Source: Glomus cerebriforme (taxonomy: Eukaryota; Glomeromycota; Glomeromycetes; Glomerales; Glomeraceae). From it: DNA of 64,000 nt. Position 1 is the stretch's first letter, and every line of letters begins with the position of its first letter. The translations under genes and the position numbers were made by a program. The DNA lies in NCBI GenBank assembly GCA_003550305.1, contig QKYT01000052.1, positions 110,718 to 174,717 of the forward strand. The letters are read 5' to 3'. This document shows positions 4,759 to 52,940 of the stretch, piece after piece. The notes beneath the pieces are model-generated. The model had not been told where the DNA came from, ran no database searches, and was given only the letters and a program-made list of their open reading frames with translations.

Positions 4759-6111
4759 ATGGTAAAATGGATTATTCTGATTTACTATCGAATAAAAAAA
4801 ATGTCAATTTGTGAAAGATGCAAAGAATGCAACAAGTCAAATAGTGGATTTAATTGGTGTCGTGATTGTAATGCGAGACATTTTCAACAAAATTTTAACA
4901 ATTGGAAGAGTGGTAATGATGATATTGATAGATTTATTCAAGATACTCAGTTATCAGCAATTTGGTGGACTAAATTATTAGAGTGGATACCTTATGATAG
5001 ATTTTATGATATTGAATATATTGCAAGAGGTGGGTTTGGCAAAGTATATAGAGCAAAATGGATTGATGGACGTATATGTAATTGGGATAACGAAAGTAAG
5101 AATTGGAATAGACTCCATCCAAATGAATTTGTAGCTCTAAAAAGTTTAAATAATTCAGAAAAAGTTACATTAGAATATATCAATGAGGTAATTAAATTTT
5201 AATAATTTAAAGAAATTTTCGATTTTTTTTTTTTTTTTTTGAAAACTAAATATACTGTATATTCTATTATTTAGATTACATCATATCATAAAATCACTGA
5301 ACCTTTTATTATTGAGCTTTATGGAATAACTCAAGAACCGAAAACAAAAAATTATATGATTGTTTTGCAATATGCAGAACATGGAAGTTTACGAAATTAT
5401 TTAGATCAGAATTATAATAAATTAAATTGGAAAGAAAAGATTTATATTTTATATGATATTTCAAATGGACTTGACCAAATTCATAAGAAAGGATTAATTC
5501 ATCGAAATTTACATCTTGGTAATATATTAAGACTTGAATGTGGAACTTCTATAACTGATATAGGATTATATAAACCTGCAGATTATAATGTATTTGAAAA
5601 TAAAATATTTGGTGTCTTACCTTATGTAGCTCCGGAAATTTTACGAGGACAAAGTCATAACAAAGCTTCTGATATCTATAGTTTTGGTATAATTATGTAT
5701 GAAGTAATTTCAGGATTACCCCCATATCATAATGTACCTCATAATGAACTTTTGGCTTTAAGAATTTGTCAAGGACTTAGACCAAAATTTAATATTAAAA
5801 TACCAGAATTAATTTTGCGTTTAATTAAACGATGTTTAGACGCAAATCCTTTGAATCGTCCAAATGCTAATGAAATATGGGATACTTTATTGCAATGGTA
5901 TAACGAAGATGATACAGAATTATATAAGCAAATTAAAGTAGTAGAAGAAATTAATAAGAATTTATCTACTAGTGTTATTACATTATCAGATGAAGCAATT
6001 TATACAAGTAGGTTATTTAATTTCAATAATCTTCCAGAACCAAAAAATTCCGATGACTATTATAAACAATATAACCATGGAATATTAAGTAAATATGCGT
6101 ATATTGTATAA
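4759..6111 (+). CDS. Protein kinase-like gene with HRN in place of HRD (candidate pseudokinase)
   Basis: Exons 4759-5187 and 5275-6111 (intron GTAATT...TTAG) give 421 aa. A second Met at 4801 would give 407 aa and better matches the paralog at 51269. Order: a Cys cluster (CERCKEC ... WCRDC, residues 18-37), then a TKL-like kinase domain: Gly loop ARGGFGKV at 89-96, VALK Lys at 128, HRNLHLGNIL from about 219, DIG at 238 in place of DFG, APEIL, and DIYSFGIIMYE. The catalytic-loop Asp is Asn (residue 221), so phosphotransfer is expected to be weak or absent although the Lys and metal-binding Asp remain. The tail (IYTSRLFNFNNLPEPKNS) is shared with the 51269 gene. Kinases of this type are greatly expanded in Rhizophagus. 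Intron position is conserved between the two copies. Confidence 0.88.
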
Positions 6112-16577: not shown

Positions 16578-18379
16578 TTAATTTGTATTGATAAAATCAA
16601 TTTCATCTATTTCTCCATTTTCATCTTGAAGTTCTTTAAGAAGTTTATCAATTTCTTCATAAACAAGATCAACTTCTGATCCATCTAAATCATTAGATAT
16701 ACCACATTTTTTAAAGGAACGGATAATAATATCATCCGAAATATTATCCCATGCACGCTTAACCCATTTACAAACATCACTTATTTTAGCACGTCAAAGA
16801 TTTCCTGAAGTAGTATGTCCAGCTCCACCATTAGACATCCAAAGGTGCCATTCTTTACGGAGGTTATCCTTAAATGGCTTGTTGATTGCAACATCAAGTG
16901 GTTGACAAATGCTAGTCAAACCACCCGGAATTACTGCCAAATCAACATTAGTATTATAAAATGCATTTTTAACAGATTCTTCTAAATGTCCTCTAAAAGA
17001 ATCATACACCATCAATGCAGGAAAGTTGGATTGGCCATTTGTCATTCTTGAANGTTTGAGATAATCAANATANNNTTTCATTAAGTCTGCATTCATCCAT
17101 CCACTCTCTTGGAACCAAACAATCACACCAGAAGGTGCTTGTTCTNNGCGTGNCATTTGTTTTCCTTTGAAAATACAAATTGCAGGAAATTTAGTTCTAT
17201 CTATTATAAATAAAAAAAATTATTATTTTATTTAAAAACTAATAAAAACCATAAATTTAATGTAAATATTACCTGCGGCTAAACTTGGGTGCTGAAACCT
17301 ACCTATGCCGAAACATATTTGGGATTCGGCATATGCCGAAATGTCGATTCAGAAATTTGCCGAAATCCCAAATCCCAAATCCCAAATCCAAAACCGATGC
17401 TGAAATCCCAAATCGATGCTAAAATCCCAAACCGATGCTGAAATCCCAAACCGATGCCAGAATCCCAAATCATTGCCAAAATCCCAAACATTGCTGAAAT
17501 CCAAAAATCCCAAATTTTGGTCATTTCCATATTGGAGGTTTGGGATTTCGGTAACGGTTTGGGATTCTGGCAACGGTTTGGGATTTTGGCATCAGTTTGG
17601 GATTTCAGCATAGGTTTGGGATTTGGGATTTCGGCAACTTGTATATGTCGAAAGGTATTTGGGATTCGGCATATAGCCGAAACGTTTCAGCACCCAAGTT
17701 TACCTGCGGCACATGTTAAAACTACCGTAAATCGGTTTTTTTCATTTCCTGTTCCACAAATATGAATTGTCTTTTCACCTTTTGTATGAATGGTAAAGTT
17801 TCCAGCCATGTCAAACCAGACAGGTGTTTCATCCATATTAAAAATATTACACAATTCAAAAGATTTTCTGACCCTAATTCGAATGACAAATCTGCGAAAT
17901 TTTTTCAATAATTCTTCCATTTGTTCAGGTAGTGTTTGTGATACTTTTGTACACTGCCATAAAGCCAATTTATACCTTTTCATAAATGCAGATAACCAAC
18001 CAGATGTTGCCTTAAATGTTTCTATTGAATCGCCATAGAGAGAAATCATTTCTAGCCAATCTAAAATTTCAAACATTGAAATTCGTAAATTCACTGTGGT
18101 TATAGCTAATGCCATTTTTCTTTGTTCCATAACCTATTTGAATAACTCTTCTTCTGCTTCGGGATAAAATGCTTTTCGCCCAGAACCTACACTCATATTT
18201 GTTGCTTTTGTTTCATCTGTCCAGTTTAAACTTGCTTTGACCCACCTTCCAACCATACTAGCATCAAGTCCAAAGTGCCTAGAAGCTTCATTTCTGCTGC
18301 GTTCCTTAGCATAAGTAACAACAATTTTTTTTTGATCAATAGAATACGAATTACGTTAGCATTTTGAAACTTGTGGCAT
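16578..18379 (-). pseudogene. pogo-like DDE transposase, interrupted by stops and a MITE
   Basis: Exons 18379-17704 and 17200-16578 would encode about 432 aa. The N-terminus is a CENP-B-type helix-turn-helix (NEASRHFGLDASMVGRWV). The DDE region follows: NMDETPVWFDMAG (first Asp), LMVYDSFRGHLEESV (second), GGLTSICQPLDVAINKPF (third). The C-terminus is acidic (LLKELQDENGEIDEIDF). Three in-frame stops break it: TAA at 18358-18356, TAG at 18136-18134, TGA at 16796-16794. All are explainable by single C-to-T or G-to-A changes (e.g. CAG to TAG, CGA to TGA). Several N bases lie at 17052-17153. The intron donor GCAG|GTAA has been duplicated by the MITE. As read, it is inactive. Confidence 0.82.
17280..17702. 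mobile_element. 423-bp MITE (hAT-like 8-bp target duplication) inside the transposase
   Basis: Perfect 19-bp terminal inverted repeats start TAAACTTGGGTGC (17280-17298 and 17684-17702). They are flanked by perfect 8-bp direct repeats CCTGCGGC (17272-17279 and 17703-17710). The interior is a near-palindrome built from GGGATTT(C/T)GGCA / GGTTTGGGATT units reading outward on both strands. This causes several overlapping spurious ORFs. 8-bp duplications are typical of hAT elements. No coding capacity. Confidence 0.85.
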
Positions 18380-37007: not shown

Positions 37008-39324
37008 TTAATTCTTCTTGTTATCTATGGAAGTATTATTCTTCTTTACTGCCGTTTTCATCCAATCCTGTGCACGCTTATTTCCAGCCATGGCTGCCTT
37101 TTTGATTAGGTTTCGAGCTTCATCTTTCTTTCCAGTACTGCCCAAGTATTGGCCATACGCGAACATGCCCTTGGGATTCTCCTGGTTTGCCGATCGTTTA
37201 AGTAGTTCGATATATTCTTCGTAATACAACGTGGCGAGCTCATATTGTGCATCTGCATTGTTGAGATCGGAGGCTTGTTGGAGATATGGCATCGCCTTCT
37301 TCGCGAGTTGTTCTGTAGAATTAATAAAAAAACAAGCGTTTGTGTGATTGAGTAAACTTAGATCGGAGATCTCGCGCAATAATACAAAACTCAATTAAAA
37401 AACAACCATCCCGCGTGCTATCTTCAGACTCGTCCTCTTCCACTTTCACATATTTCCTCCAAAGATAAAGTCCCGTATAATATAATGCTCTGGAATCATT
37501 TGTACTCGATCCGCAATATTGATAACACTTGAACGCCTTTTCACGATATTCCCGATACTCTTGCTCCAGTATCTCCAGTTGCTTCTTGTCCTGTAAAATG
37601 GGGTCACTTTCGCCAGCGGATTGTACTTGATTATTGTTCTTTAGGGATAACACAATCTTATGTACATCTTCTGCTTTCTGATGCCAAGCAGCAGCATTTG
37701 TCAGAGTCCATTCTTTCTCTTGAGGATCATTAAAAGGTGTTTCGGTCGTAATGTCACTGGTTGGCATGGTTTCTTGTTCGATCAAGTCTGCCAGAATATC
37801 ATCAAGTACCCTAATAATATCACTTATTGATGGTCGATCTGTCGGTGAAATGGCACAGCAATCCTCGATCAACTTGTTGAATTTTGGGCAGATGGTCAGG
37901 TTTTCATCATCATTCATCATATAAAATAGCTTGTTGTTTTTGATTTTATGTTGAGCAGTCTTATCGTCATCATCACTATAAGGTTTCTTTTCTGTTTGCA
38001 GCTGCCAGAGAAGAGCTCCATAGCTTTATTGACAATAATTTTGCATAGTTAGGATGGAAGTTGACACAATAAACTGTTTGTACAATGACATTCATGTACC
38101 TCCAAATATCAGACAAATAGGTATGTTCTTTAGCATCTAATACCTCAGGTGGCTCATAACGACTGTTTGTGATGATATAACTGGATCTTTCCTCTATCTA
38201 TGAAGTTAGAAATAGTGGCAGAATCCAGAATAAAGTTTAAAACAAAATTTGCAACAGCAAATCAGAAAGTAGAAGCATAACGTACTTCTCTCCCGTACAC
38301 AAAATTTGACACTTTAGGGCGCAAGTCTTTCGTCATGTAAATATTGTCACAACATATACTCTTGTGTATAATACCAGAAGCATGGATGTATGCGAGAGTG
38401 TATGCAATTTCTCTAGCAATTTCAATCTTTTGCTTCATTTTCTCACGCAACTTGCCCTTCTTGAGCACTTCCGTCAACGATCCACACGGCAAGTCCTCCG
38501 TAACGACGTACACTCGGCCGTTTTGTCGATATAATCCATAAGAGCCGTGCACTGATCCCAAATTGGCGAGCTTCTGAAGGATCGCAACGCTTCGGCGTAT
38601 ACTATGAGAAGAATCACTGCCAGGATCCGCAGCAGCATCGATATTATCGGAAATTTGGTAACTGACTTCACTGGCAATGACGGGTTGGCCCTTGTAATCG
38701 CTGCGAAATTTTGAGGGTTCGTTCTCGATAGGTTTTAATTTCAGATCCTTGATGAAAATTTTAGTAAAGTCCTGTATCAATTTGTCATCCATTATGCGTC
38801 GAACGTCTTTTATGTAAGAGTTATTTTCCAGAGTTATTTGTTTTACATCGTCGCTAGCATTGGCCGTATGTATCTTTAAAATAAAAAAATAAACAAATAT
38901 ATTAACAATTAAAGATAAAGTCATCTTTCAGTTTATGTAAAATTTCTGTTACCTGAACTGAAAGTTGAAAATAACTAAGATACTTAGCCAATTCATCCTC
39001 TAATTTCTCATATTCCTGGATGAAAAGGATTTCCCAGAGGTTGTAGGAGAATTTATTTGCCGAAGTTCGTATGACATACCGCAGGCATCTGCGAAGAACA
39101 TCCTTCAGCTTCTGAAATGTTTTATACTCTTCATCCATTTGACAATCGTTTAAGGTCCTTTTTTGACTGTATTTGGATAGTGCTTCAGACAAAAGTCGAC
39201 AATTCTCGCCAAGAGATTCGCAACGTTTACTGTTATTGCGTAAATTGGAAGACATCACGTATACTTTGGTCGCGATGTCCATCAGCTGTAAGGCAAAGGA
39301 AACGATTCCAAGTGATTCTGCCAT
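37008..39324 (-). CDS. MLKL-like helical domain + pseudokinase + Sel1-like repeats, five exons
   Basis: Exons 39324-38953, 38873-38286, 38197-38100, 38023-37407 and 37312-37008 join in frame to 659 aa. The fourth intron has a weak donor (GTTGTT). Start is MAESLGIVSFALQL; an upstream in-frame Met exists at 39375. Residues 1-124 are all-helical and fit the MLKL-type N-terminal bundle (NSKRCESLGENCRLLSEAL). Residues about 180-450 are a kinase fold with key residues lost: VIASEV at the VAIK site, HKS (294-296) for HRD, SNF (313-315) for DFG. The scaffold is kept (SDIWSYGALLWQLQ, PTDRPSISDII). Residues about 540-650 hold Sel1/TPR-like units (SDLNNADAQYELATLYY, NPKGMFAYGQYLGSTG, AAMAGNKRAQDWMK). 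MLKL-type proteins execute membrane-lytic death in animals and plants; that role here is inference. GC is higher than in neighbours. Confidence 0.85.
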
Positions 39325-39917: not shown

Positions 39918-42580
39918 ATGACACATTGTACCTCAAATTCTAAAGATGCCAATGAAACCGAACAATCAGATGTGCTCGCTGAAAATGAACAATTAACAAT
40001 AATCATCCCGCTTCCCCTGCCTGATAAATCTTTCTTGGATGATATTCAAAAATTTTATTCAAACGATTTCCAAGAAAATTTCACTGGCGACGATGTGACT
40101 TTAGATTATCTTTTTACAGCATGGGATTGGTCGAGAATGGTTCAGTGTGTCTACAATGAATACTTTGGTACCGGAGAAGATGCCCTACAGTCCGAATGTG
40201 CCGCAAAATCACCCGACTATGCTTATCAGGAAGTGCTTCGTGAACTCAGAGCACGAAATCTCTTTGATGTTCACGAATTTACGAAGTTCAACCCTAATCT
40301 GAAACCAATCCCGTGTGCACCCGTACTGTGGAAAATTGCTGAACAAGACATTCCAAACTGGGAAACACTCAGATCAATGTACCGGGATTGCCCTGATATG
40401 AAATTTTGGACTCGTCATAGTTTTGATATGTGGCAAGTGTGCCGCATGTATCAGCTATACAAAGAGCGTCCAGAAAATGTCGACATTCTTCGATCAATTG
40501 TTGGAGATTATCCATACAAATACGACGACAAAAAATTAAGCAAGTCCAAATTAGGCAAAATAACAGAAGAGGAATTTAAGTTTCTAGACATGGCGCTAAA
40601 TGAAAAAACTAATGTAAAGTTTGGTCATTTCTGCGAATTCATTCTATATAAAGAATTATATGATGTCTTGTCGTTGGAGGACTACTACTTGGCTCAAAGT
40701 CTCCAAAAAACTTCTTGGAGTGATGAAGAGTCTGAGGAACTCAAGGAATGGTTCCAGGACTTAGTTGTTGCCGGGATTACAAAGATTGCAAAATGGAATC
40801 CTTGGAGAGGACGCCGCAGTTACTTATGGATCAACAGCTGGCTAACTTATGCTCAAGAAACCACCAAATACAGCCCTTACGGAGACAATAAAGCTCCATT
40901 AACGTTGTTACTTAGTCCGAAAATCCCGAACAAACAGTTTCGTTATGGTAACTATTGGAACGAATTTGTAAGTCGATAATTCTCCGCATTTTTTATCTTA
41001 TTTTTAGAATAATGTTCATTTTTGTAAGTTTGTCTTTGTTTTCAGAACGACTGTGGGCTTACTCGGCAAGTTCCTCACGCAAAACCTTTAATGGTACAAA
41101 CATTTCCTGGTTTCTGCTACCGATTCTTCAAAGAAAAATATGGGGATACTTCTGCACAAAAAATGTTTACGATGCGTGTTGATGTACCTGGTAATGCACA
41201 GAGACTACAACGGGAACTTGGCGATCTCTATAAGAGAGATTTTGGGCATATTATAGAGTGGATCCCGTACGAAAATCTGAGTAACGTTGCGTATATGACC
41301 CGTGGTGGATTTGGATACATATATACTGCGGAATGGAAACCACAGCAAAACGTCAATTTACCACGATATCAGCGTAATCTCTCTAGCGATGTCACAATTC
41401 CTGTCGCCCTAAAGTATATCTTTAACGCAGAGCATATCACCGAATCATTTCTTCGTGAAGTATGTTTATGAATGACATTCAAAATATGTACAAATACTTA
41501 TATATTTTTTTATGTAAATTCAGCTGAACATTATGGTGCACGCTTTATCCGCGTATCCACTTGGATTTGTGAAATTTTGGGGTCTTACAAGACGCCCAGT
41601 GCCTAAAATAATAGAATCAATCTCTGAGAAGAATTCTTTACCACCTTCGAATGCAGTCCTATTGGTTCTAGAGTTCGCAACACATGGGACACTCCATGAT
41701 TTTCTTTCATCTAAGAAATCTATGGACTGGACGGAAAAAATTAATATTGCTTTGCTTATTGCAACTGGTATTAATAAAGCATTGCACTCTAAAGGAATTG
41801 CTCATAGGTAAGTGTTGCCTATTTGGAAAACCAAAACTGAACAATTATTTATTTACCACAAACTTGGCTCTATGATTGTACATTTTAATCATTAGAGATT
41901 TACACAGTGGCAATATTCTTATGCTCAATGTTCCTGACGGGAATACGCCGTCTATAAGAGGTTGTGTAACTGACGTGGGGTTAAGTGGCTACGTCCGAAT
42001 TGAGAATGCTATGGTAGCAGATGAACAAGAAGGTGTTTTTGGAGTTCTTCCTTATATTGCACCCGAAGTGCTTGGTGGCGAACCTTATACACTTGCTGCG
42101 GATGTATACTCTTTCGGTATTATTTTGTGGCAAATTGCTGCCAATAAGTTACCTTTCCGTAATCGTGCTCATGACATTAGTCTGAAAAATTCCATATGCA
42201 ATGGTCTTCGTGAGAACCGCGTACCTCAAGTACCCAAGGATTACGAAGATATGTATATGCGGTGTTGGGATGCTGATCCTAAAAAAAGACCTACCATCGA
42301 TGATGTCATGTGGGAATTAGAACGTATGTGGGAGGATTCAGTTGACGGCAAACTCTCTACAAATGAAGAAGGGGCTGATGTTGATGATGATGGACCAAAA
42401 GAGAAGATGGATAAAAATCTTGATAATTCACAAGTTCACTCCACCGACATCCACCCAAATACCGTATATCACAGCCGGTTTTTTTCCACCACATCGGAAT
42501 GCACATTGGAATTCACGATGGAAGATTCCGAGATCTGTTGGCAGCAATCGTTTACTAGGGATGTCAAAAATCTGGTTTAA
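39918..42580 (+). CDS. Large protein kinase with unique 400-residue N-terminus, four exons
   Basis: Exons 39918-40967, 41046-41459, 41524-41807 and 41896-42580 join in frame to 810 aa, all with strong GT-AG sites (GTAAGT, GTATGT, GTAAGT). Residues 1-400 form a helical, Trp-rich region I do not recognise (LFTAWDWSRMVQCVYNEY, PCAPVLWKIAEQDIPNW, SLEDYYLAQSLQKTSW). The kinase domain spans about 425-710: GGFGYIY at 437, VALK Lys at 473, HRDLHSGNIL at 582 with catalytic Asp 584, DVG at 609 in place of DFG, YIAPEVLGG, DVYSFGIILWQI. Catalytic residues are intact, so it is probably active. The tail ends TVYHSRFFSTTSEC, echoing the SRLLNF tail of the 51269 kinase. Divergent neighbour of the MLKL-like gene, with similar less-AT-rich codon use. 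Confidence 0.9.
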
Positions 42581-43206
42581 ACAATAAAAAACAATTAAAA
42601 CCAATTAAAACCATATGGAAATTTTGTTCTAAAATTGTTTTAAAACACGCACGTGCCATACCTATCGTTTACTATTGACCAAGAATCGCTTAGATAGAAA
42701 CAATGATATTATTTAATAAGAACTTCTCATGTAAAAATATTTCAGCATAGCTGTTAGAGAATTATTTTATTATAATTTAATTTACTGTTGTTAATAAAAT
42801 AATTTTTTTTTGAGTTCGAAAAATTTGTAAGGACAATAATAAGACAAATTATAGGTTGAGGTTAATATAAAAAAAAATTATTTATAATTAATATAGCCAG
42901 TATTATGTATTTAGCCAAATTTCATAATTCGGATGCATATTTTTACTATTAAATGTACTTGATTTGTTAACAATATAAAACGTAACTCAATAACTCAATA
43001 CTAATAATTGATAAAACTTGTGCAATTTTAGAAGTTAGAACGTACTGTACTATTTTATTTAATATTTGATCTTATCTCATGTTTACTAATGGTCGCCCAT
43101 GATTTTTCATAGTGATATTTTTTTAAAAACTGTGAAAATGATAATATCAAATATAGTTTATTTTAATATTTAATTTTTATTGTTAATAGCGTTAATATTT
43201 TAATTA
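42581..43206. other. Intergenic, 3' flank of the large kinase
   Basis: AT-rich, no feature recognised up to the N run. Confidence 0.4.
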
Positions 43207-43781
43207 NNNNNNNNNNNNNNNNNNNNNNNNNNNNNNNNNNNNNNNNNNNNNNNNNNNNNNNNNNNNNNNNNNNNNNNNNNNNNNNNNNNNNNNNNNNNNN
43301 NNNNNNNNNNNNNNNNNNNNNNNNNNNNNNNNNNNNNNNNNNNNNNNNNNNNNNNNNNNNNNNNNNNNNNNNNNNNNNNNNNNNNNNNNNNNNNNNNNNN
43401 NNNNNNNNNNNNNNNNNNNNNNNNNNNNNNNNNNNNNNNNNNNNNNNNNNNNNNNNNNNNNNNNNNNNNNNNNNNNNNNNNNNNNNNNNNNNNNNNNNNN
43501 NNNNNNNNNNNNNNNNNNNNNNNNNNNNNNNNNNNNNNNNNNNNNNNNNNNNNNNNNNNNNNNNNNNNNNNNNNNNNNNNNNNNNNNNNNNNNNNNNNNN
43601 NNNNNNNNNNNNNNNNNNNNNNNNNNNNNNNNNNNNNNNNNNNNNNNNNNNNNNNNNNNNNNNNNNNNNNNNNNNNNNNNNNNNNNNNNNNNNNNNNNNN
43701 NNNNNNNNNNNNNNNNNNNNNNNNNNNNNNNNNNNNNNNNNNNNNNNNNNNNNNNNNNNNNNNNNNNNNNNNNNNNNNNNN
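43207..43781. other. Assembly gap (run of N)
   Basis: 575 undetermined bases. Content unknown; a hairpin element abuts the right side. Confidence 0.98.
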
Positions 43782-43788
43782 GATAAAA

Positions 43789-43879
43789 TAGTTATTTCAT
43801 GTGAACCATGAATTTATCATTATTTTCACGGCTGCGCCGTGAAAATCAATGATATTCATGGATTCCCATGAAATAACTA
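43789..43879. mobile_element. ~91-bp hairpin element with TTTCATG ... CATGAAA arms
   Basis: Outer arms TAGTTATTTCATG and CATGAAATAACTA are inverse. Inner arms CCATGAAT and ATTCATGG follow, and the centre is a perfect hairpin (TTTTCACGGC, TGC, GCCGTGAAAA). A related structure is at 49884-49968. Either a tiny MITE or a regulatory hairpin. It directly abuts the assembly gap. Confidence 0.6.
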
Positions 43880-51268: not shown

Positions 51269-52940
51269 ATGAATCAAAAGTTGAGATATGGAAATTGTGA
51301 AAAATGTAATCAAATAATGACCGATTTTAACTGGTGCAAGTCTTGTAATTCAAAAAATTTCCAAGAAAATTTTAAAAATTGGACTAGTGGAAATGATAAT
51401 ATTGATAAATTTATTCAAGAAACTCAGCTTTCAGCAAAATGTCATTATAATGTATTGGAATGGGTACCTTACAATAGATTTCAAGATGTTAAATATATCG
51501 CAAAAGGTGGATTTGGAAAAGTTTATAGAGCAAAATGGAAGGATGGATTTATTTTTATGTGGAATTATAAAAATAATGGTTGGAATAGACTACAGAATAA
51601 TATGTTTGTAGCACTAAAAAGTTTAAATAATTCAAAAAATGTTTCAATTGAATTTATCAATGAGGTATAAAATTATTTATGGTATTAATTATTGTCGATT
51701 TCAAACCGATTAAAATGGTTGAAAAATTTACATTTTACTTTAGTACATTTTGTATTTTTTTATCACCATCATAATGGTTCAATCATTTGAAACCGTCAAT
51801 AATATAATTTAAAATTTTGAATTATTTAGGTTACATCTCATCATAAAATGTTCAATGCACATATTACATCTTATATTGTTAGATTTTATGGGATAACTCA
51901 AGATCCAGAAACAGAAAATTATATGATGATTTTGGATTATGCAGAAAGAGGAAGTTTACGAAATTATTTAGATCAGAATTACAATGATTTAAAATGGGTT
52001 AATAAATTACAAATTTCATTTAATATTGCAGCTGGACTTAATCAGATTCATAATGAAAAACTGATCCATCGAGATTTACATATTGGTAATATATTATGTT
52101 TTCCTCATAAAACCTTTATTACTGATTTGGGATTATGTAAACCTGCAGATAATACATTAAAAGATACAAAAGATACAAGGAAGAATACATATGGTGTTCT
52201 ACCTTATATAGCTCCTGAAGTTCTACAAGGACAAAATTATACCAAAGCTGCTGATATCTATAGTTTTGGTATAATTATGTATGAAATAATTTTAGGTTTA
52301 CCTCCATATTATGATGTAAGTCATGATGAAAATTTAGCAATAAAAATATGTCAAGGACTTAGACCAAGGTTTAATATTAAAGTACCTCAATTAGTTGTAC
52401 ATTTAATTAAACGTTGTCTAGATGCAAATCCATTAAATAGACCAACTGCAGAAGAAATCAAAGAAATTTTAGACAAATGGAGAAAAGAGGCTAATTCTAG
52501 AAGGTTTAATCCAACTGAATTAACTAAACAAATTGAAGAAGCAGAAGAAATAAATAATAATTTATCAATGAGAAATTTATCTTCAACTAATTTGAAATAT
52601 GAGACACATTCTGAAGCAATTTATGCAAGCAGATTACTTAATTTCAAAAATCTTCCTGAATCAAAAAATTCTGATGATTATTATAAACAATATGATAATA
52701 TATCAAGTATGATATATTCAGGTAATTATGAATGATTTAATAATATTGTAAAAATAGCTAATTAATTTTATTTGATTTGATAGAATCTTTACAAATTGAT
52801 ATTTCTCAATTGAAAATTTATGATGAAGGTAAAATGTATATTATTATAAATTATGATTTTTTTTTTTGATTGATTTTATTTATTTTTTAATTTATTTTTA
52901 TAAAGATAAATTAGAAAATATTGATGAAAAAATAGAGTAA
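51269..52940 (+). CDS. Protein kinase, intact paralog of the 4759 gene, four exons
   Basis: Exons 51269-51664, 51830-52721, 52784-52828 and 52906-52940 join in frame to 455 aa. If the third donor is not used, translation stops at 52735. N-terminal Cys cluster (CEKC ... WCKSC, residues 10-26). Kinase domain: AKGGFGKV at 79-86, VALK Lys at 117, HRDLHIGNIL from 212 with the catalytic Asp, DLG for DFG, APEVLQG, DIYSFGIIMYEI. The conserved family tail AIYASRLLNFKNLPESKNS follows. The added last exons give SESLQIDISQLKIYDED ... IDEKIE, an ending that reads like a natural C-terminus. The first intron falls at exactly the same place (INE|V/I-TS) as in the 4759 gene. Likely an active TKL-like kinase; substrates unknown. 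Confidence 0.9.

Follow-up and report, generated by a model that had tools for sequence, protein, structure and literature searches.

An outlying MLKL-like bundle-pseudokinase-Sel1 gene of Glomus cerebriforme and its Glomeromycotina family

Results

We analyzed a 64,000-nucleotide stretch of the Glomus cerebriforme genome (assembly GCA_003550305.1, contig QKYT01000052.1, forward-strand positions 110,718 to 174,717; here called the window). A gene in the window is predicted to encode an N-terminal four-helix bundle, a pseudokinase, and a Sel1-like tail. Sequence comparison places this gene, which is not a singleton, among the outliers of a large Glomeromycotina family, and the comparison with MLKL drawn by a first-pass annotation of the window is right at the level of the family. 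The architecture, the homology, the loss of catalytic residues, and the expansion of the family were computed here. As their best explanation we favor, by a slight balance of probability, a pseudokinase-gated, membrane-attacking, MLKL-like executioner.

A Glomeromycotina family with MLKL_N, pseudokinase, and Sel1 modules

The 112.5-Mb genome assembly (1,117 contigs; the window lies within contig C656) was searched with the Pfam profile PF22215 (MLKL_N). There were 40 matches at an E value of ≤10, 24 of which were above the curated cut-off; exon 1 of the window gene was absent from the 40 candidates scored. At every one of the 30 MLKL_N loci fetched, a kinase segment lay downstream on the same strand. 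One locus, L034 (positions 619 to 2805), is a single continuous frame of 729 amino acids with matches to MLKL_N (38.5 bits; cut-off, 27), kinase (125.6 bits), and Sel1 (38.1 bits; cut-off, 30.7). For the family, L034 thus answers the concern that the helical exon might be part of a separate transcript, since it carries all modules in one frame. The window protein has the same three modules, collinear and in the same order.

In the predicted structure of L034, the bundle is formed by helices at residues 30 to 65, 71 to 93, 105 to 129, and 140 to 160, with a further helix at 170 to 193, the region where MLKL-like proteins have a brace helix linking bundle and pseudokinase. The model also contains a solenoid of helices as well as a kinase fold; its mean pLDDT (predicted local distance difference test) is 81.1, with five low-confidence stretches. 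Foldseek and VIA-align comparisons of the full paralogue model returned only kinase domains among the matches listed (50 each), including ITK, BTK, and one RIPK1 but no MLKL, and these results therefore do not bear on the bundle.

Profile comparisons addressed the bundle itself. Pfam recognized MLKL_N in all 30 bundles examined. A family bundle profile that included the window sequence gave 11 matches in the PDB, of which MLKL was the best and none was Cbl or a plant chain. These results weigh against a non-lytic signaling scaffold, in which the bundle would be a dimerization or docking module, as in Cbl-type and plant coiled-coil adaptors, and the pseudokinase and Sel1 solenoid would assemble pathway kinases with no attack on membranes. 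The bundle superfamily moreover serves membrane attack in animals, plants, and fungi (PMC12881547; this and all papers below are cited from the portions available). We regard the scaffold as a real but minority possibility.

With the HeLo profile (PF14479), matches were confined to 3 of the 30 bundles, with a best E value of 0.0015. The first-pass annotation had suggested a necroptosis- or heterokaryon-type cell death executor; the MLKL-like architecture is borne out by profiles, predicted fold, and paralogues, but the scarcity of HeLo matches speaks against the heterokaryon-type role. An allorecognition executioner, set off by a polymorphic partner on fusion of unlike hyphae, would fit a family that is expanded and divergent and whose MLKL bundle is related to the HeLo domains of fungal incompatibility proteins (PMC10197012, PMC12881547). 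Given the HeLo result, we consider it quite unlikely.

Catalytic motifs were then read across the family. At the 30 loci, Asn stands in place of the DFG Asp in 27, Gly in one, and Arg in one; DFG is kept only in L029, where the alignment column was misplaced and the motif was read by eye. The HRD Asp is kept at 26 of 30 loci (the column is unreliable in one), and the VAIK Lys was read at 20, with other residues at 4 and an unreadable column at 6. Public relatives gave a similar picture: among 127 kinase domains with both motifs readable (36 of 163 domain matches were left out because a motif column was a gap), Asn stands at the DFG Asp in 111, the HRD Asp is kept in 114 (mostly as HHD), and the Lys is kept in 111. 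The usual family signature, as aligned, is thus a retained Lys (VACK), HHD, and NF[KE], which is common but not universal. The window protein departs from this set: it retains the N-F and the catalytic-loop Asn, but the Lys and the HHD Asp are gone. Another locus, L014 (C421), has GFE at DFG and VACI at VAIK, unlike the usual NF[KE] and VACK.

The public relatives came from a search with an alignment of paralogues, which found 260 proteins; 120 of these were listed and used. Genera among the matches listed were Rhizophagus, Glomus, Gigaspora, Diversispora, Funneliformis, Ambispora, Acaulospora, Entrophospora, Dentiscutata, and Cetraspora. Only this search reached the family; full-length and bundle-only queries did not. 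A full-length single-protein search gave eight kinases at an E value of ≤0.001 among the best 7,994 candidates and no recognizable whole-protein relative.

The gene and its N-terminal bundle

The five in-frame exons of the first-pass annotation hold: all lie on the minus strand, are separated by GT-AG introns, and give a protein of 659 amino acids (Table 1). The G+C content is exon-like, at 0.37 to 0.43 in the exons and 0.17 to 0.32 in the introns, against 0.26 for the window. Nearby alternative splice sites leave six open combinations, whose products differ by a few residues. An alternative start, at a Met in the open frame of exon 2 before a hydrophobic run within intron 1, was rejected because bundle and kinase are joined at all 30 paralogue loci, once in a single frame.

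Table 1. Coordinates of the window gene, its altered kinase motifs, and the adjacent gene
Feature	Position	Strand	Basis or remark
Whole gene: MLKL_N-like bundle, pseudokinase, Sel1-like tail (659 aa)	37008..39324	-	five exons
Exon 1, residues 1-124: predicted four-helix bundle	38953..39324	-	AlphaFold2, PF22215
Exon 2, residues 125-320: linker, degenerate N-lobe, catalytic-loop and DFG regions	38286..38873	-	
Exon 3: end of activation segment (YEPPEV), start of F helix	38100..38197	-	
Exon 4: remaining C-lobe, linker, start of Sel1-like tail	37407..38023	-	
Exon 5: Sel1-like helical repeats up to stop	37008..37312	-	
GQPVIASEV, at the VAIK place, without Lys	38664..38690	-	by eye, against YRGQxVACK of paralogues
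IIHKSICCDN, at the HRDLKxxN place, catalytic Asp replaced by Ser (HKS for HRD)	38343..38372	-	family alignment
KVSNFVYGRE, at the DFG place	38286..38315	-	family alignment
Head-to-head neighbor gene: N-terminal part without Pfam match, then kinase	39921..42580	+	outer limits of open pieces

An all-helical N terminus had been claimed from the translation, with a structure check of residues 1 to 124 proposed. AlphaFold2 supports it: helices are predicted at residues 2 to 26, 33 to 56, 63 to 89, and 95 to 123, forming a four-helix bundle as in MLKL-like proteins (pLDDT, 83.1; predicted template modeling score, 0.76). Residues 34 to 49 read RCESLGENCRLLSEAL.

The proposed search with an MLKL N-terminal profile gave a divided answer. 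For the window protein alone, PF22215 scored 19.1 bits (E = 9.6e-4), below the 27-bit cut-off. A profile built from the paralogue bundles (n = 30) scored 20.0 bits against exon 1, and 25.2 bits when the start of exon 2 was included; the best of 1,000 shuffles of exon 1 reached 14.5 bits and the second best 7.4. In hhalign, the window bundle aligned to the paralogue bundles over 108 columns with a score of 32.4 and a probability of 67%, and the best of 200 shuffles scored 24.3. One paralogue (L025), which contains unknown residues, was left out of the 30 in the bundle alignment. Identity between the window bundle and the paralogue bundles is 11 to 19%.

One result weighs against the bundle assignment: exon 1 was missed, at an E value of ≤0.01, by a whole-length profile built from only seven paralogues. 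The bundle alone found none of 196 candidates at an E value of ≤10 in a protein search, and its eight matches in the PDB included no MLKL and nothing convincing. HeLo (PF14479) was not listed for the window protein at an E value of ≤10, in a program whose filters remove most matches above 0.1.

The Sel1-like tail

The Pfam Sel1 model did not match the window tail alone. The Sel1 module of 45 relatives matched it with 41.7 bits (33.1 for the best stretch, with a composition bias of 15), and the best of 1,000 shuffles reached 9.6 bits. The terminal Sel1-like repeats of the first-pass annotation are seen with the relatives' module and not with the Pfam model. Its suggestion that this part is a sensor or scaffold is plausible.

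The pseudokinase of the window protein

The kinase profile PF07714 matched residues 211 to 426 (E = 4.5e-31). The match begins only at model position 43, with the glycine loop and VAIK part unrecognized, and the nucleotide-binding half is thus degenerate. VAIK, HRD, and DFG had all been described as replaced. VIASEV and HKS stand, the VAIK place having been set by eye (the automatic alignment misplaced that column), but the reported SNF is one residue out of register: the DFG columns of the family alignment hold NFV, with Asp changed to Asn and Gly to Val. The protein thus has a C-terminal kinase fold lacking the DFG Asp, as in MLKL-like proteins. The C-lobe scaffold is kept as described, with PPE and the F-helix SDIWSYG, including its Asp, retained. 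In the translation, the activation segment contains Ser, Thr, and Tyr, potential sites for a switch by a RIPK3-like kinase.

A profile of seven paralogues matched the window kinase with 74.7 bits, a match made without a shuffle control. For a quick kinase tree, every fourth of 119 family domains was taken (30 in all), together with 20 further kinases from the genome, six outside kinases, and the window kinase. The tree weakly suggests a place for the window kinase beside the family (Shimodaira-Hasegawa-like approximate likelihood ratio test, 84, below the star level), with a long branch flagged as unsure. That end branch, at 2.82 changes per column, would fit a decaying family member, a drifting duplicate that lost its catalytic residues and has no present function. 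The loss of the Lys and the HRD Asp on top of the family-wide DFG change and the empty protein search with the bundle point the same way. However, the gene keeps 659 stop-free codons over five exons, intact splice sites, and an exon-like composition, and its C-lobe and Sel1 module are still recognizable, making decay very unlikely in our judgment.

Intact-looking kinases next to, and possibly fused to, family members

The head-to-head neighbor of the window gene encodes a kinase that, judged by eye from its RGGFG, VALK, RDLHSGN, and DVG motifs, looks catalytically intact. Linkage of this kind was also sought elsewhere. At least two kinase domains with readable motifs occur in 14 of 120 relatives. 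In four of these proteins, an intact-looking first kinase is followed by MLKL_N and a pseudokinase: P0012 (Rhizophagus irregularis), P0009 (R. clarus), P0018 (Diversispora epigaea), and P0114 (Funneliformis geosporum). P0030 (R. irregularis) was left out of this group because its first kinase has NMG in place of DFG. Such kinase-MLKL_N-pseudokinase chains could be genuine fusions or the product of merged gene models; P0009 and P0012 contain a second MLKL_N, which suggests merged tandem genes.

Kinase segments lie within 1.5 kb upstream at 2 of 31 loci (the 30 paralogues and the window), on the same strand at L013 and on the opposite strand at L009. At C302:385987-387498, two MLKL_N genes stand head-to-head: L019 has a pseudokinase (NFK), and L029 has an intact-looking kinase (GSGHFG, VVFKK, HRD, and DFG). 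Genome-wide kinase and Sel1 searches scored about 150 candidates each and are unusable for counts or a proximity test. We claim no enrichment of kinase neighbors, and the neighborhood alone proves nothing, since kinases are so common in this genome.

The window contains further kinase genes at 5275 to 6111 and 51830 to 52735. Open pieces on the minus strand at 16794 to 18133 resemble, by eye only, a DDE-type transposase of a mobile element, and 43204 to 43791 is a stretch of unknown bases (X in all frames).

Discussion

Neither animal nor plant MLKL is known to carry a Sel1 tail. Animal MLKL, which kills cells through membrane puncture, has an N-terminal four-helix bundle, detectable by profile, followed by a pseudokinase, as does the family described here. 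In contrast with animal MLKL, most of the fungal family still has the VAIK Lys and, within HHD, the HRD Asp, and reads NF[KE] where DFG would stand; the window protein has lost the Lys and Asp as well. Among plant bundles, which include those of MLKL and the RPW8/NRG1 coiled coils, none was represented in the 11 matches of the family profile.

MLKL-like proteins in fungi are an idea already in print. Homologues of the MLKL family, TC 1.A.105, are described as exclusive to Glomeromycotina and as carrying Sel1 repeats, which have no clear function in fungi (PMC8778642); the available portions give no motif, structure, or mechanism for them. The window gene shares with them subphylum, MLKL homology, and Sel1, but it is an outlier in which two more catalytic residues are lost. 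A Basidiobolus MLKL is named in PMC11476962, and fungal MLKL may therefore extend beyond Glomeromycotina. The fungal HeLo and HeLo-like domains (HET-S, HELLP) belong to a related bundle superfamily, and some of the HeLo-like domains are accompanied by a kinase or pseudokinase domain (PMC12881547); the Pfam HeLo profile, as noted, finds few of the family bundles. No description of the family motif signature, the outlier, or the kinase linkage was found in the available portions of the literature searched.

For the MLKL-like executioner that we favor, we infer gating, oligomerization, membrane attack, and biological purpose. The pseudokinase would lack phosphorylating activity and act as a switch that keeps the bundle inactive. 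Release might follow when another kinase phosphorylates the activation segment or when a partner binds the Sel1 solenoid. The freed bundle would oligomerize at a membrane and permeabilize it, and the hyphal compartment would be killed or sealed off. A cell death role for the window protein can reasonably be supposed from homology.

A broader proposal, which we hold to be unlikely, is that of a diversified, necroptosis-like arsenal in arbuscular mycorrhizal fungi: an executioner pseudokinase would be coupled with the intact kinase that activates it, either within a single protein or through adjacent genes, to form a RIPK3-MLKL-like pair. The window gene, with all three catalytic motifs lost and an intact-looking kinase gene head-to-head with it, would be the executioner half of such a pair. 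If this is true, such pairing could be read directly from the genome.

Execution of the MLKL type has been described in animals and plants, and the bundle also in fungal HeLo proteins. Fungal proteins that join the bundle to a pseudokinase have hardly been studied and receive one sentence each in the available portions of PMC8778642 and PMC12881547. Here, a single root symbiont has at least 30 loci, most of them with DFG changed to NF; a Sel1 tail was present wherever it was sought in full. A family of this size in one symbiont makes the cross-kingdom sharing of the mechanism directly testable, and its members are candidates for roles in wound sealing, rejection of unlike partners, and response to invaders in these multinucleate fungi.
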